Assembly: GCA_016192145.1 (NCBI GenBank)
Contig: JACPUT010000018.1
Span: 186,001-250,000, forward strand
Source: Acidobacteriota bacterium
GTDB lineage: Bacteria; Acidobacteriota; Holophagae; Holophagales; Holophagaceae
Direction of reading: 5' to 3'
DNA: 64,000 bases
In this document: piece by piece, positions 31,884 to 38,712 of the stretch
Position numbering within the stretch: position 1 is the stretch's first letter
Layout of the letters: the number at the start of each line of letters is the position of its first letter
The notes under the pieces: model-generated
What the model saw: only the letters and a program-made list of their open reading frames with translations
Database searches by the model: none
What the model was told of the DNA's origin: nothing
Made by a program: the position numbers and the translations under genes

Positions 31884-34800
31884 CTAATGTCCGTGAGGCA
31901 TGGGTGATTCCTTGGATGGGGCCACCACCTGCACCCACTTCGCCACGGACGGCACGCCTTGGTCGCTCACGATGAAGAGCATGTAGTAGCCGGGTGGGAC
32001 GAGGTTCGGATTGGCGGGCATCTCCGTGTGGAGGTGGCAGGCGTGGCGGCGGAAGGGGAGGTCGATGAGGCGCTGCTCGCTGTCATAGGAGTGGGTGGTG
32101 GCCATGGGTTTCACGAGGCTGATCCACTTGATCCGCGAGGCATCGGGCGAGTGCACGGCGAATGCGGCGCCCAGGGCGACCTTCTCCGGCGCCCGTTCCA
32201 GGCAGGGGCGAGGGCCCTTGAACAGGTAAGGCGGGTGGTAGATCTCGATGCGCTTCTCATCGTTGCGGCGGCTGGGGTTGGAGCCGGAGGTCAACACGCG
32301 GCCATCGGGCATCAGCAGGGCAATGGAGTGGTACATCCGGGGCACGCGGGCCCGAGCGCCCGTATGCCAGGTGTTCGTCGCGGGGTCGTAGATCTCCGCT
32401 TCGGTGGAAGCGGTCAGGGCATCCTCGGCGATGCCGCTTCCGCCGGTAGCCACCACGGTGCGATCTGGAAGGATGACCGCGTTCACGTGGATGCGGTTGC
32501 GCAGCATGGAGGGGACCTGGACGTAGGTGGGGGAGGGCGCGTCGGTGTCGATGACATGCACCTTGTTGATGCTCGGGCTCCCGCCGCCCATCACCATGAC
32601 CTTCTGGGTCTGGGCAGGGGGAAGTAGCACGGTGGCCCCCTGATCCCGGGCGCCGAAGTTGAAGCTCGCGGGGACCGCCGCCGCGGGCAATGGGGTGTAG
32701 GCCCCCGTGGTGGGGTTGAGGTAGCCCGGGGCCATGCCTGAACCGCCCAGGCGCATGCCCGAATGGAAGACGCGCCCATCCTTCAGGAGGTGAAGGTGGG
32801 GGTAGAGGGGCCAGCCGATGCCGGGCCCCGCGACGCTCCATCCCGTGGGGGCGTCGTAGATTTCGTTCTCAGGCGATCCGCCACCGGAGGTGGCCATGGG
32901 ATGGCCATTCCCCAATCCGATGAGGGTGGGGTACCAGCGGCCGTTCTTCATGGCCTGGACGAAGGTCCACTGTTCGCTGATGGGGTCGAAGATCAGGGAT
33001 GATTTGAGCCCCACGAAGGGATCGTAACGTTCGGTGCCGCCGGCCACGAAGACGGGGCCATCGGGCAGGAAGCATTGGCCGGCGCAGAAGACGTCCGTGG
33101 GCGTGGGCGGCAGGGTGAAACCGCCGTTCTCATAGTCGTACACGGCGCTGCGCAGGCCCGTGGTGTAGAGCTCATCGTTGCCCGAGCCGGCGAAGAACAG
33201 CACCTTGCCGGTGTGCATGAGGGCCGCGTGCACGGTGAGGATGGGGGTCTCGCAGGGCAGCAGCTCCCAGTAGCCCAGCTTCGCTGCCTCCAGCGGATTG
33301 AAGGCGGGTTGGGCTGGAACCTTCATCGGCATGGGCTTGGGTTCCGGCATGGGGTCATGGGGATGGCTCCCGCCATGCACGTGCTCTTCCATCATCATGA
33401 TGTTTTCGGGAATGCCGTCGATCATCGGCCCCATGCCGCTCATGGGGCCCGTTTCCATGCCGTGGGTGTGCGAACCTCCGCCCGTGGAGCCGGGTCGCTG
33501 ATGCGCCTTGAGGCAGCGGCGCAGATCCACCCAGCCGCACTCGGTGCCGCACCCGCAGGTGGGGAGCACGAAGTCGATCTGCTTGAGGATTTCATCAGTG
33601 ATCCAGACCTTCTGCTTGGACCTCACCAGGCCGGCGAGTCCGGCCATCATGTGTTCCTCGATGTGACAGTGGAACAGGAAGTCCCCGCAGAGGGTGATGA
33701 GGCAGGCATCGGGTGGCGGGGTGCAGCACTGGAGCGCTTCCAGCTCGCAGGGCAGGCGAAGGGCGAGGGGGACCTCGGTGTCGAGGATGAAGGTCTCCAC
33801 GGGGCTCAGCCCATGCACGTCACTGGCGCCGGTGGGGGGATGGGGGAATTGCCACCGGGCGGCATGGGGGTGGAAGTTGTGCCACACGCTGCCCACGTCG
33901 AGGTTGAAGAGGTACCAGCGGATGCGATCCCCGGGCTGGCCCGTGATGATGGGGGTGTTGCCAACGTAGGCGCGGCCGTTGAGGCAGTAGGTCTGGTTGC
34001 CGCCACCGCCGGCGAAGACGATGTGCTGATTGGCGCCATTGTTTTTCCAGACCACCTGGGTGCCCGCGGTGACGGTGACATCCGCGGGGGTGAAGGCGTT
34101 GTCCACGATGCTGATGGCGACGGGAGCGCCAGGGCTGCCCGCCACAACCCGGACCCGGCCGTGCATGCTGGCGCCGTGGATGCGGCAGATGTAATCGCAG
34201 GTCTCGCCGGCATCGGGGAAGGTGGTGCTGTAGGTCTGGCCCGTGGAGAGCATGGGGCTCTCGAACTTGCAGTGGTTCATCACGTCGGCCATGGCGTGGA
34301 TGAAGAGGGGGACTTCGTGATCCGCCCGAGGGGCCTTGGGATCGCGCACGACGAGGCCGCCGAAGAGGCCGCGGTTGATGCTGGCCCCGACCATTCGAAC
34401 GTGATCGTGGAAGGGCCAGGCACCGATCATCTCCTCGGTGATGTCGAAGACGTAGGTCCAGCTCTGTCCGGGCAGGATCTCATCGCTCCGGCGCCCATCT
34501 TTGGTGGCGATGCCCCGGGGCCAAGCGCCGTCGGATTCGATGCCATACCGCAGGCCGTGCACGTGCAGGCTGTGGCACTCGTTGGGATCCGCATTGCGCA
34601 CGTGGATGTAGAGCCGCTCACCGGGCTTCGCCCAGAGCACGGCGCCGGGAACGCGGTGATCCCAGGGCGGCTCGGTGGAATCCGAAGGCGCGATGGGCGA
34701 CGTGTTGGGCACCGCGTAGTCAGGATCCAGGTATTCACGGTAGACGAGCGCATCCACCCGGGCCTGAAGGATTTCATCGGAGGGGATGCGCCCCAGGTCA

Positions 34801-34922
34801 TGGCCCTCGTTCAGCTGGCAATCCCGGCCGTATCGCCGGGCGCAGAGGAGGGGGGCCAGGGGGCTGTAGCCGTCGAGGGGTTCGATTTGCAGGAAGATGT
34901 CGCGGCGGGCGCAGTCGGTCAT
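31884..34922 (-). CDS. Multicopper oxidase fused to a glyoxal/galactose-oxidase-type copper-radical oxidase
   Basis: A 1012-residue fusion. Residues about 95-435 form a multicopper oxidase with all four His-x-His elements of the trinuclear site (HVH 120-122, HDH 172-174, HPH 351-353, HCH 418-420) and type 1 ligands His348, Cys419, His424. Embedded are plastocyanin-like segments, one with His217, Cys246, His249, Met253 and another starting FTPADVTVTAGTQVVWKN. Residues 456-533 are a Cys cluster and a Met/His-rich linker. Residues about 555-1003 are a kelch/DUF1929 radical oxidase keeping Cys613 and Tyr664 (the thioether pair), Tyr864-His865 and His944. No signal peptide is visible from ATG 34922 (GGAAAGG upstream), so location is unclear. 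Substrates are unknown. Confidence 0.9.
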   Translation of the reverse strand: MTDCARRDIFLQIEPLDGYSPLAPLLCARRYGRDCQLNEGHDLGRIPSDEILQARVDALVYREYLDPDYAVPNTSPIAPSDSTEPPWDHRVPGAVLWAKPGERLYIHVRNADPNECHSLHVHGLRYGIESDGAWPRGIATKDGRRSDEILPGQSWTYVFDITEEMIGAWPFHDHVRMVGASINRGLFGGLVVRDPKAPRADHEVPLFIHAMADVMNHCKFESPMLSTGQTYSTTFPDAGETCDYICRIHGASMHGRVRVVAGSPGAPVAISIVDNAFTPADVTVTAGTQVVWKNNGANQHIVFAGGGGNQTYCLNGRAYVGNTPIITGQPGDRIRWYLFNLDVGSVWHNFHPHAARWQFPHPPTGASDVHGLSPVETFILDTEVPLALRLPCELEALQCCTPPPDACLITLCGDFLFHCHIEEHMMAGLAGLVRSKQKVWITDEILKQIDFVLPTCGCGTECGWVDLRRCLKAHQRPGSTGGGSHTHGMETGPMSGMGPMIDGIPENIMMMEEHVHGGSHPHDPMPEPKPMPMKVPAQPAFNPLEAAKLGYWELLPCETPILTVHAALMHTGKVLFFAGSGNDELYTTGLRSAVYDYENGGFTLPPTPTDVFCAGQCFLPDGPVFVAGGTERYDPFVGLKSSLIFDPISEQWTFVQAMKNGRWYPTLIGLGNGHPMATSGGGSPENEIYDAPTGWSVAGPGIGWPLYPHLHLLKDGRVFHSGMRLGGSGMAPGYLNPTTGAYTPLPAAAVPASFNFGARDQGATVLLPPAQTQKVMVMGGGSPSINKVHVIDTDAPSPTYVQVPSMLRNRIHVNAVILPDRTVVATGGSGIAEDALTASTEAEIYDPATNTWHTGARARVPRMYHSIALLMPDGRVLTSGSNPSRRNDEKRIEIYHPPYLFKGPRPCLERAPEKVALGAAFAVHSPDASRIKWISLVKPMATTHSYDSEQRLIDLPFRRHACHLHTEMPANPNLVPPGYYMLFIVSDQGVPSVAKWVQVVAPSKESPMPHGH

Positions 34923-35019
34923 GGGGCACCTTTCCAAAAGGGGGGAGTCAGGGCGTGGCCGGCCCCCCCTGGCGGAAGGCGCAGCTCATTCCCATCTCGG
35001 TGGACGATCCGCCTTAAGG

Positions 35020-35151: not shown

Positions 35152-36399
35152 TTAGGGCGTGACGAGCCCATCCATCCGCACCACCTCGAAGGCGCTGCCC
35201 TTCACGGCGCCCAACTCGCTGTTGAGCCTGCCGTTGTCCCACCGGGGATCCGGGGCGCCGCTGATGTACCAGTCGCTGCCGTTGTCGGCCACCATCATGC
35301 CGAAGGTCTTCAGGGCCTGGAGGATGGCCTTGGTTTCCGGCGATTGGCTAGCGGGGATCACGAAGGAGGCTTTCAGCCTTACCCGCATGCCCATGGGGGG
35401 GCGGTTCACGTCCGTGCTGCTGGACGCCCAGTGGGTGGCGGGGGGCACGTAGGCCCGGCGGCTGAGGTTCACGGTGAAGCGCAGGGCGTGGCGGATGGCG
35501 CCGCTGGCGGCCTCCTCGTAACGGACGAGGCCGGGGAAAATGGGCAGGCCCGCGGCGTCGGTGCTCGTCCAGCCCGGCTGGGCCGTGGGGCGCGCCACGA
35601 GGCCGTCCAGGGTGAAGATGGAGCCTCCGCTGGCCTGCCAGCTGCCGTTGGCCTGGGGATAGGCGTTGCCGAGTTCGTAGAGACGGTTGGCGTCGCGGTC
35701 GATGACGAGCACGTGCCGGTCGCCTCCGAAGGCGCTGCCGTCGGCCATCTGGCCTTCGATGGGGGCGTTGGGGGGAACGGGGTAGGGGCCCGGGTCGCTC
35801 TCGTCGGCGTAGGCGCCGAGGGTGATGGGGACCTTGGGCTGGGTGCCCGCCACGACCACGTAGGGGATGCCGATGGGCGCGCCCTGGTACAGGCCGGAAC
35901 CGAAGTCGGGGTGGAGGCCCTTGCTGAGCCCGAGGGTGGCGATGAGGTTGGCGCTGTTGGGATCCACCGGAGCGCCGGAGATGTCCTGGTTCCACGCATT
36001 GGCGGCGGTGAAGGCGATGGCTCCGTTCAGATTGGCGCCTGCGCCGAGGTCAGCGCCGTGGAAATCCCCGAACTTCGGGGCTTGGGTGCCGACGGTGACC
36101 GTCACCGAAGCGGAGGCTTGGCCGCCGGGTCCTTCGGCCACCAGGGTGTAGCCCGTGGTGAGGGTGGGCGCGACCGGGGTGGAGGCGGATGCGATCGCCG
36201 TGCCCTGCAGCTTCAAGGTCGTGGCGCCCGTCACCACCCAGGCCAGGGTGGAGGATTGCCCGGCGGTGATCACGGAGGGCGTGGCCGTGAAACTGGCGAT
36301 CACCGGCTTGGCGGGAGTTGAGTCCGCGGGGTGGGTGCCTCCACCCCCGCCGCAGGCGAGGAACAGGGGCAGGGCCAAGGCGATGCACGGGGGTCGCAT
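35152..36399 (-). CDS. Large lipoprotein, Ig-like N-terminal domain plus unknown domain
   Basis: A 415-residue lipoprotein. The signal ends with lipobox LFLAC followed by a Gly run; then comes an Ig-like/PKD-type beta domain (about 35-115; FTATPSVITAGQSSTLAWVV) and a C-terminal domain of about 280 residues with DRHVLVIDRDANRLYELGNAYP, which I know only as an uncharacterised secreted family. ATG 36399 is chosen for the signal peptide; the ribosome site is weak. It is upstream of, and on the same strand as, the copper-oxidase gene, with a 229-base gap, so joint function is possible but not shown. Confidence 0.75.
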   Translation of the reverse strand: MRPPCIALALPLFLACGGGGGTHPADSTPAKPVIASFTATPSVITAGQSSTLAWVVTGATTLKLQGTAIASASTPVAPTLTTGYTLVAEGPGGQASASVTVTVGTQAPKFGDFHGADLGAGANLNGAIAFTAANAWNQDISGAPVDPNSANLIATLGLSKGLHPDFGSGLYQGAPIGIPYVVVAGTQPKVPITLGAYADESDPGPYPVPPNAPIEGQMADGSAFGGDRHVLVIDRDANRLYELGNAYPQANGSWQASGGSIFTLDGLVARPTAQPGWTSTDAAGLPIFPGLVRYEEAASGAIRHALRFTVNLSRRAYVPPATHWASSSTDVNRPPMGMRVRLKASFVIPASQSPETKAILQALKTFGMMVADNGSDWYISGAPDPRWDNGRLNSELGAVKGSAFEVVRMDGLVTP

Positions 36400-36559
36400 G
36401 GATTCAGGATGGACCGGATCCCGGGGGCAAGAAGGCCTGCCTTCCCACCGGTCCTGAAGGCCGTCCCAGCGGTGGGAAGCCATCAGCCGAACAGGAGGGC
36501 CCAGAGGAGGGAGAAGAACTGTCGCATGTCCCCATCATCGGACGGGACTCGATGGGGGA

Positions 36560-38071
36560 TCAGGGGGTCGGCCGAACGGGCATGGCCTCCCCCCCAGTGG
36601 TTCGGAGGAGGGGCCGCAGGGCTTCGGCCATGCGCTCGCAGGCTTCGTTCTGCTCCTCAAGGTCGTGGGCTGCGAAGCCCAGGCAGAGTCGCTGCAGGGG
36701 CTGGCGGTGGAAGTCGTAGAGCCGCCCGGGATAGAAGATCACGCCCTTGGCCGCGCAGCGTTCCGTCCAGGCATCCACGGAGATGCCCTCGGCCACTTCC
36801 ACCCAGAGGGAAAGGCCCTCCTTGGGGTTTTCGATCCTGACGTGCGGGTGGAGGTGGAAGAGGAGGCGATCCACCAGGTTCGCCCTCCGCTCCTCGTTCA
36901 CCTTCCGGATGCGCGCGAGGTGGCGGTGCATCTCGCCGTCCCTGAACAGCTCCTCGATGGTGGCTTCCTGCACCTGGTTGCCGGGCCAATCGATGAGTTG
37001 GCGCTCCTTGGCCATGGACTTGATGAGCGGGGCGAAGCCCGCGAGGAACCCCACCTGCAGGCCCGGGGCGAGGATCTGCTCGAGGGCGCTGAAGTACACC
37101 ACGGCGCCGGAGCGGTCCTCGCTGGCCAGGGGAAGGGCGGGGGCCTGCTCCCGCTGGAAGCCCAGGGTGAGATCCCCTTCGAGGATGCGGAAACGGTGGC
37201 CTTCGGCGAGGGCGAGCAGCCGGGCCCGGCGGGGGGCGCTCAGGATGGCGTGGGTGGGGTGCTGGGGCGCGGTGGTGGTGTACATGAGCCGGATGGGTTC
37301 CCGGGCGATCAGGGCTTCCAGGGCGTCCACAACCAGCCCCTCGGCATCCACGGGGATGGGCACGAGCCGAGCCCCCGCGGCGCGGAAGGCCTCCAGCACG
37401 CGGAAAGCGGCGGGCGTCTCCACGGCCACGAGGTCTCCGGGGTTGAACAGCGTCCGTGAAACGAGGTTGAGGGTGCTCATGAGCCCCCGGGTGAGCACCA
37501 CGTTGCCGGGTTCGAGGGCCAGGCCGCGCAGTTCCCGAAGGAGGCGGCACAGGGAGATGCGGAGGTCGAGCAGCCCCCGGGGATCCCAGCCGGGCTGGAG
37601 GATCCGCTGCTGCTGGAGGTTCAGGACGCGGCCGTTGGCGCGGTGGATGGCGGAAACGGGAGCCAGGCGCACATCCGGCAGGTCGGGGATGAGGCGGAAG
37701 CCCTCCCGATCCGTGGCCTGGGGCTGGAAGAAGGGCTCGGACATCGAGGTGGGCGAGGTCCAGGAGCCGGAGTCGGAGGCCGCGATGGATTCCTCCGCTT
37801 CAAGCGCCCCGATGGGTCGCTGCTCGGCGACGAAGGAACCCCGATCCGGCTCGCAGGTGATCCAGCCCTCGGCCTCCAGCTCCTGGTAGGCGGCGAGGGT
37901 GGTGTTGCGGTTCACGCCAAGGCTCTCGGCCAGGCTGCGGGTTCCAGGCAGCGCGTCTCCGGGCCGCAGCCTGCCCTTCCGGATATCGGCCACCACGGCG
38001 CCCACGATCTGGAGGTAGAGCGGTTCGCTCTGGGTGCGATCCAACTCGATGGCCGGGGACCACTGCGTCAC
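36560..38071 (-). CDS. MocR/PdxR-type regulator with a degenerate aminotransferase domain
   Basis: A 503-residue GntR-MocR protein: a winged helix at about 12-82 (LPGTRSLAESLGVNRNTTLAAYQELEAEGW) and a fold-type I aminotransferase-like domain from about 120. The PLP lysine motif, normally SK-[ST]-L-x-P-x-L-R, reads E-Q-I-L-A-P-G-L-Q: the Schiff-base Lys is Gln332 and the phosphate-binding Arg is also Gln. It therefore probably does not form an internal aldimine and may sense something else. GTG 38071 is chosen because AGGAG lies 6 bases upstream. The nearest divergent gene is the Ig-like lipoprotein at 38230. Confidence 0.85.
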   Translation of the reverse strand: MTQWSPAIELDRTQSEPLYLQIVGAVVADIRKGRLRPGDALPGTRSLAESLGVNRNTTLAAYQELEAEGWITCEPDRGSFVAEQRPIGALEAEESIAASDSGSWTSPTSMSEPFFQPQATDREGFRLIPDLPDVRLAPVSAIHRANGRVLNLQQQRILQPGWDPRGLLDLRISLCRLLRELRGLALEPGNVVLTRGLMSTLNLVSRTLFNPGDLVAVETPAAFRVLEAFRAAGARLVPIPVDAEGLVVDALEALIAREPIRLMYTTTAPQHPTHAILSAPRRARLLALAEGHRFRILEGDLTLGFQREQAPALPLASEDRSGAVVYFSALEQILAPGLQVGFLAGFAPLIKSMAKERQLIDWPGNQVQEATIEELFRDGEMHRHLARIRKVNEERRANLVDRLLFHLHPHVRIENPKEGLSLWVEVAEGISVDAWTERCAAKGVIFYPGRLYDFHRQPLQRLCLGFAAHDLEEQNEACERMAEALRPLLRTTGGEAMPVRPTP

Positions 38072-38229
38072 TCGGTACTCCTGGGGGTGGGTTCCTTCCA
38101 ACCTTGTGGAGCCTGGCCACCCGCGTCAAGAACGATCCGGATCCGGATGGGTCGGTATTTCGGGACCGGATCTGGGGGGAACCGCCTCGTGCTTCCACGT
38201 TGGTGCAAACCACCCCGATGGAGGACTTC

Positions 38230-38712
38230 ATGGTCCAGCTCCTGAAACCGGTACTGGGATTGGCGGCGCTCGCCTGCATCGGGTGCAGCGGGGGGTACAG
38301 CTCCCCCTCGGGCGGTCCCACGGCGGGGACGGTGCTTTCCACCGGGATCACGGTCGTGGCCACGGCGGGAACCACGCCCCAGTCGACGCCTGCCGGATCG
38401 CCCTTCGCTTCCAACCTCTCCGTGAAGGTGAGCCAGGTGGAGACCGTGAGCGACGGGGATGGCTACGGCGGATCCCACAAGGTGACCACGCCCAAGGCGG
38501 GCGCCTCCGTCACCTTCACCATCGTCGCGGGGGGCGGTGGGGCCTCGGGCACCTTCCCCGGAGGCGTCACGACGGTGACGGCCACCTCCGATGCCACCGG
38601 CCTCGCGGTGGCTCCCGACCTCACGGCCAACGGGACCACGGGCACGTTCACCGTCACCGCGACGGTGACGGGAGCGCCATCTCCCGCCACCTTCACGCTG
38701 ACCAATTCCTGA
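38230..38712 (+). CDS. Ig-like domain lipoprotein
   Basis: A 160-residue lipoprotein: signal with lipobox CIGC, then a Ser/Thr/Gly-rich beta domain that looks like a bacterial Ig-like (Big-type) fold, with SVTFTIVAGGGGASGTF, a Thr/Val stretch and NGTTGTFTVTATVTG. Such domains are structural. ATG 38230 is preferred over ATG 38218 because GGAGG stands 6 bases before it. It is divergent from the MocR-like gene (158 bases between starts). Confidence 0.75.
   Translation: MVQLLKPVLGLAALACIGCSGGYSSPSGGPTAGTVLSTGITVVATAGTTPQSTPAGSPFASNLSVKVSQVETVSDGDGYGGSHKVTTPKAGASVTFTIVAGGGGASGTFPGGVTTVTATSDATGLAVAPDLTANGTTGTFTVTATVTGAPSPATFTLTNS

Follow-up and report, generated by a model that had tools for sequence, protein, structure and literature searches.

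A gene in the 64-kb window (the whole stretch of DNA analysed here, 64,000 nucleotides) appears to encode a regulator of MocR build that works independently of PLP and governs a periplasmic electron-transfer regulon. From sequence comparisons and a structural model we infer DNA binding and, more tentatively, a ligand, and we put the probability of this reading at roughly 0.72. The gene, its domains and the former cofactor site lie as follows.

36560–38071, minus strand: MocR-architecture regulator without PLP site (P0001), 503 aa, GTG start
37829–38020, minus strand: GntR-type winged helix-turn-helix (wHTH), residues 18–81, from Pfam PF00392 and helices in the model
36608–37708, minus strand: fold type I aminotransferase-like domain, residues 122–488, from Pfam, AlphaFold2 and structure matches
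37046–37081, minus strand: ex-Schiff-base loop EQILAPGLQVGF, residues 331–342, with Q332 at 37076–37078 and Q339 at 37055–37057

The frame 36560–38071 runs uninterrupted from GTG to stop over 503 residues, and a TTG at 38101 offers an alternative start. A first-pass annotation of this DNA had called the DNA-binding domain intact. This was borne out by a full GntR wHTH, i.e., all 64 of 64 profile positions of PF00392 were matched (E 2.1e-16) and the AlphaFold2 model has helices at residues 18–31, 44–51 and 55–67. The C-terminal part matched PF00155 (Aminotran_1_2, E 1.4e-12). The model, calculated from 66 of 86 aligned rows, reached a mean pLDDT of 92.0 and a pTM of 0.78, with residues 91–103 as a low-confidence stretch. 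Its best fold match was LysN (2zyj, Z 45.5, rmsd 3.8, 385 residues). Likeness to GabR and PdxR extends over wHTH and aminotransferase fold, with Z 42.4 and rmsd 2.2 over 358 residues for the GabR C-domain (5t4j), Z 42.3 and rmsd 2.2 over 360 residues for PdxR (7pq9), and Z 43.1 and rmsd 10.6 over 443 residues for full-length GabR (4n0b). Judged by sequence and model, the features that mark the MocR branch of the GntR family, a wHTH and a linker-joined fold type I C-domain, are present in the regulator. Among 49 NCBIfam families the PdxR equivalog NF052282 scored highest, with 273.6 bits, which is below its curated cut-off of 320 bits.

The PLP site, by comparison, is gone. The first-pass annotation had read both the PLP-binding Lys and the phosphate-binding Arg as Gln, and alignment with solved aminotransferases and 59 relatives indeed placed Q332 in the Schiff-base Lys column and Q339 in the phosphate Arg column. 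Homologues carrying the same substitutions, which it had advised collecting, were gathered and aligned: in 29 ortholog rows, some of them near-identical, Lys occurred 0 times, Q332 was found in 28 of 29 with a single Pro, and Q339 in 29 of 29. The annotation understated the change, however, as the Asp, the G-S-Q loop and the substrate Arg are lost from the alignment as well. The column of the pyridine-N Asp (GabR Asp279) holds G299 in the regulator and Gly (22), Leu (5) or Ala (2) in the 29 ortholog rows. The phosphate loop, G-S-Q in most Lys-bearing paralogs, has become G-L-M, with L-M at positions 197–198 throughout (29/29). Position 463, in the substrate-carboxylate Arg column, is Cys or Ser in 29/29 rows, and C463 is probably the counterpart of GabR Arg430. 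In our own alignment, with GabR numbering taken from PMC6677901 (cited, like the other papers below, from excerpts), GabR Phe250 corresponds to H271 and Tyr281 to L301.

A Lys elsewhere in the pocket could have taken over PLP binding. The regulator has Lys residues at 32, 351, 355, 390, 417 and 442. Only K351 is invariant in the 29 ortholog rows, and it sits on the helix past the pocket strand, 19 residues after Q332. A substitute PLP lysine, the finding that the first-pass annotation had named as speaking against its claim, was thus found in none of the pocket segments of ortholog alignment or model. That annotation had suggested a PLP-independent sensor. With every alignable PLP contact lost clade-wide and no substitute Lys in the pocket, PLP independence is strongly supported by the sequences; the sensor part is more tentative and is taken up below.

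The Lys column also varies among paralogs, where 57 rows showed 40 Lys, 15 Arg, one Pro and one Gln. The 15 Arg rows make up a second MocR-like group in Holophagaceae (L019, L037, L039–L047, L060, L079, L080, L194); Pro and Gln are found in L033 and L048, respectively. Most paralogs with Arg, Pro or Gln in place of Lys kept the phosphate Arg. Lys loss in Holophagaceae MocR-like proteins may hence have happened more than once.

Orthologs of the regulator form a sharply bounded group. A search of 60 genomes returned 15 others at 64–79% identity, and all else at or below 46%. Across the phylum, 18 of 297 genomes carried an ortholog, including the window's own, all from one family, and all 29 ortholog rows belong to Holophagaceae (Acidobacteriota); one Geothrix MAG and two Holophagaceae MAGs are among the carriers. 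In a quick tree, the 29 rows formed a clade with support 100 on a long stem (0.97), and the Lys versus non-Lys state changed twice, a count that cannot tell loss from regain. Chance or a sequencing error behind the missing Lys was ruled out by 15 further orthologs, where Lys was absent in 15/15 (14 Gln, one Pro) and Gln replaced the Arg in 15/15. Residues 331–342 ranked first in conservation among 493 12-residue windows, and the dN/dS of the C-domain was 0.02–0.21 in 12 ortholog pairs. Together with the open frames in all 29 rows, these values ruled out a decaying pseudogene. From the clade-wide loss, the conservation of the loop and the low dN/dS we therefore conclude that remodelling of the site was followed by its retention, i.e., on the aligned sequences the loss of the PLP site has become fixed in a single Holophagaceae clade and is maintained by purifying selection.

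The main rival to a remodelled, ligand-binding pocket is a regulator without any ligand, in which a dead aminotransferase domain only dimerises, DNA binding is constitutive and control is exerted via the autoregulated level of the protein itself. That the ex-pocket loop is the most conserved part exceeds the needs of a pure dimer scaffold. This is not decisive, because in fold type I proteins the Schiff-base loop lies near the dimer interface. Moreover, 14 of the 63 sites of the predicted operator described below belong to the promoter of the regulator itself, as autoregulation would have it. The rival owes its rank to EnuR, whose Lys302His mutant, as excerpted from PMC8739950, takes up no PLP, stays dimeric and represses constitutively, showing that a PLP-free MocR protein still represses. 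Whereas this mutant is an induction-dead laboratory product of a protein whose 278 inspected natural representatives all retain Lys302 (PMC8739950), the Lys-less state of the present clade is natural and conserved. We regard a ligandless regulator as unlikely, albeit a serious contender.

DNA binding by the PLP-independent regulator would take place at a predicted operator close to its gene. The first-pass annotation had expected an operator near 38.1–38.2 kb, and a candidate was located there, at 38143–38170, with 0 mismatches to the pattern given below. It lies among the following features.

38143–38170, minus strand: predicted operator TCCGGTCCCGAAATACCGACCCATCCGG, profile match 38137–38179
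38124–38129, minus strand: TTGACG, candidate -35 element for the regulator, noticed by eye immediately downstream of the operator
38230–38712, plus strand: gene for a small lipoprotein-like protein of 160 aa, divergent from the regulator, without Pfam match
35152–36483, minus strand: lipoprotein-like gene downstream of the regulator on the same strand, no Pfam match
31884–34937, minus strand: protein with multicopper oxidase, plastocyanin-like and galactose-oxidase-like parts, second gene downstream of the regulator on its strand

A scan near the operator found no consensus promoter. The element was first spotted by eye as common to the upstream regions of the orthologs. With the copy from locus L067 as seed, a match was obtained in 10 of 18 other upstream regions, which 0, 1 or 2 of 200 shuffles equalled; the remaining 8 of 18 were without such a match on that strand, and one of the loci, L074, has a good match on the opposite strand. 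The operator reads TCCGG-N18-TCCGG: two direct boxes, set 23 bp apart, enclose an inverted GACC box, and the whole element is polar and 28 bp long. A first pattern, with a gap one base too long, had 0 matches in the window; across 10 genomes it hit 65 places, a number exceeded by its reversed control, and it was discarded. The pattern used here, TCCGG N5 ARAT N4 ACCCM TCCGG with up to 2 mismatches, matched the window only at 38143–38170, without mismatch (0.02 expected). Matches occurred in 15 of the 16 ortholog genomes, at 40 sites against 0 for the reversed control. Among 28 genomes lacking the ortholog, 5 also had matches with 2 mismatches allowed, 6 sites against 2 for the reversed control.

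We then built a profile from 29 sites in 14 of 27 ortholog genomes, scored 150 candidates per genome and set a threshold of E ≤ 0.01; two weak matches, L123 and L132, were excluded from profile and site counts. Sites were found in 26 of 27 genomes with an ortholog vs. 0 of 19 Holophagaceae genomes without one. The first set contributed 15/16 ortholog genomes vs. 0/16 family genomes without ortholog (best 0.0155), and 14 further genomes outside the training set gave 11/11 with and 0/3 without. As to the untrained genomes of the first set, G015 matched (E 7e-5), and G001, from the same genus as the window, held a weak site below threshold (E 0.021). The split recurred within single genera, with sites in 16/16 genomes with ortholog vs. 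0/5 without in genus g4, and in 3/3 vs. 0/3 in genus g6. We infer that the regulator protein binds this motif, and from the sequences an operator of direct and inverted repeats spaced by helical turns, a MocR feature, is predicted to be present in its regulon. In this respect it resembles the operators of GabR and PdxR, whose direct and inverted boxes are spaced by two or three turns of the helix; the direct-inverted-direct layout is described for GabR and 85 reconstructed MocR regulons (PMC5320631, in excerpt).

A different regulator, co-occurring with this gene, might instead own the motif, since the link between motif and protein is one of correlation. However, several genera have sites at the promoter of the regulator gene itself, motif and regulator are jointly absent within two genera, and the boxes follow the direct-inverted-direct scheme of a known MocR operator type (PMC5320631). 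All this argues against such a different owner, and we deem it improbable.

Slightly less probable still is a pseudo-subunit, i.e., a heterodimer with a Lys-bearing MocR paralog in which the partner alone would hold PLP in its site. Fold type I active sites are built from two subunits, and the window's genome contains 11 matches to the regulator at E ≤ 0.001 as potential partners. The sites, however, track the ortholog: family members with paralogs of 41–43% identity but no ortholog are without them, and 46 paralog loci (L017–L060, L079, L080) showed no operator within 3 mismatches.

The genes next to the predicted operators suggest what a PLP-independent regulator would control. The window's genome has four sites, before lipoprotein, cupredoxin, cytochrome c and Rieske genes. 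The first, 38143–38170, lies between the regulator and the lipoprotein-like gene, the second (C3:135510) before the cupredoxin (Copper-bind), the third (C6:286362) before the cytochrome c gene, and the fourth, a weak one (C4:141513, E 0.008), before the Rieske gene. All four start codons are 54–66 bp from the site edge. One further pattern match, at C6:85082, has 2 mismatches. Homologues of the 160-aa lipoprotein-like gene stand divergent from the regulator in three further loci (L061, L062, L076). Two arrangements in this genome are worth recording: the multicopper oxidase, plastocyanin-like and galactose-oxidase-like parts at 31884–34937 are fused in a single frame, and on C6 (L234:4119–5391) three tandem cytochrome c-like matches occur with the operator between the second and third.

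Across genomes, sites sharing the same 120 bp were merged before neighbour families and orientations were counted, and neighbour-gene counts took sites with a fetched locus, e.g., 30 of 40 pattern places. Of 62 distinct sites, 58 lay at most 400 bp upstream of a gene from a listed family vs. 0 of 30 control places, which were matches of the discarded first pattern; the figure is partly circular because the family list was drawn up from the same loci. Representatives were assigned by Pfam or NCBIfam to Rieske, Cytochrome_CBB3, Copper-bind (plastocyanin/azurin), CHRD, DUF2231 and TIGR03118, with Cu-oxidase_3 slightly under its cut-off. Further site-adjoining sequences we take to be M64 and DUF5777 members. 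No Pfam match was obtained for OMPc2, a protein of 353 residues that in our reading resembles an outer-membrane barrel, or for the window's lipoprotein.

The sites lie in divergent promoters, and over 63 sites operator orientation was fixed per family. Behind the operator were Rieske (17/17), TIGR03118 (9/9), CHRD (8/8), cupredoxin (8/8) and cytochrome c genes (6/7), and in front of it OMPc2 (15/15) and DUF2231 (11/11). The regulator gene itself took either orientation, 8 in front and 6 behind, with the operator 48–88 bp from its start when in front.

OMPc2 (L125:1570–2628 and relatives), exported and barrel-like, is tied to the presence of the regulator: 26 of the 27 genomes that carry the regulator have its gene, the exception being G033 (76% complete), vs. 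0 of 19 without. Adjacency of the two genes is not universal, as the OMPc2 relative is located elsewhere in the window's genome and in G005, G011, G019 and G030, and these relatives had no site in the stretch examined. In L074 (10143–13015) the OMPc2 gene stands beside genes for a cupredoxin-like protein and for a membrane protein that is Ser/Thr-kinase-like in part; this trio is conserved near the regulator in L068, L069, L072, L075 and L077 as well. The cupredoxin-like assignment is our own reading of a sequence without Pfam match.

Amine-metabolism or PLP genes were not recognised among the genes adjoining the sites. The regulon would hence consist of exported redox proteins rather than amine metabolism, an element absent from the picture drawn by the first-pass annotation. 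That annotation had also considered binding of PLP-amino acid adducts formed elsewhere; although the aminotransferase fold is retained in model and structure matches, non-covalently held PLP, PMP or such an adduct is very improbable because the loss of the Lys is accompanied by that of the Asp, the phosphate loop and the Arg residues for phosphate and carboxylate, and the genes beside the sites do not point to amines either.

We therefore return to the PLP-independent regulator with its redox regulon and propose the following mechanism. A protein with intact wHTH and aminotransferase fold would no longer use PLP. Comparative genomics suggests that it would bind the polar 28-bp operator in divergent promoters, its own among them, and that a head-to-tail dimer is the probable binding form. 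In this way exported electron-transfer and surface proteins would come under its control, i.e., Rieske, c-type cytochrome, cupredoxin, multicopper oxidase, CHRD, TIGR03118 and the barrel-like OMPc2. In the weakest steps of the proposal, the remodelled pocket (L197/M198, Q332, Q339, C/S463) might bind a ligand non-covalently, and this ligand might report electron-acceptor, redox or copper status.

We file the protein as a PLP-less variant of the MocR architecture, because it is predicted to be MocR-like at the DNA yet fails the cofactor features of the family. MocR regulators are described as PLP-dependent throughout the literature covered, in excerpts. GabR holds PLP on Lys312 with Asp279, where the present clade has Gln and Gly, Leu or Ala. 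A survey of 1331 MocR domains found Asp and Lys conserved across all clusters, with Acidobacteria not among its tabulated phyla (PMC6677901). MpaR from Pseudomonas aeruginosa likewise controls a respiratory protein, ccoN4; in contrast to the present regulator it requires its Lys, and K314A led to undetectable reporter activity (PMC10790758, in excerpt). Suvorova and Rodionov (2016) note that MocR factors often regulate cytochromes and oxidoreductases (PMC5320631). The excerpts of that paper contain no Rieske-cupredoxin-CHRD-TIGR03118 set, and 'Acidobacteri' had no match in its text. We found no report of a natural Lys-less MocR protein in the open-access literature searched, although an earlier mention of Lys-less sequences elsewhere is possible, and a literature search for Geothrix regulators gave no useful match.

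At somewhat less than even odds, we suggest that a natural MocR lineage dropped PLP and rebuilt its pocket as a sensor for something other than an amine, e.g., a quinone, copper or a redox cue, and runs a periplasmic electron-transfer regulon via a polar operator. If so, the fold type I domain should be viewed as a module for binding ligands in general instead of one dedicated to vitamin B6. Sensing by the aminotransferase fold in the absence of its cofactor would be demonstrated by a PLP-less clade that is conserved and has both a concrete operator and a small regulon. Geothrix and its kin are metal-reducing bacteria, and Holophagaceae would gain a candidate regulator for their exported electron carriers.
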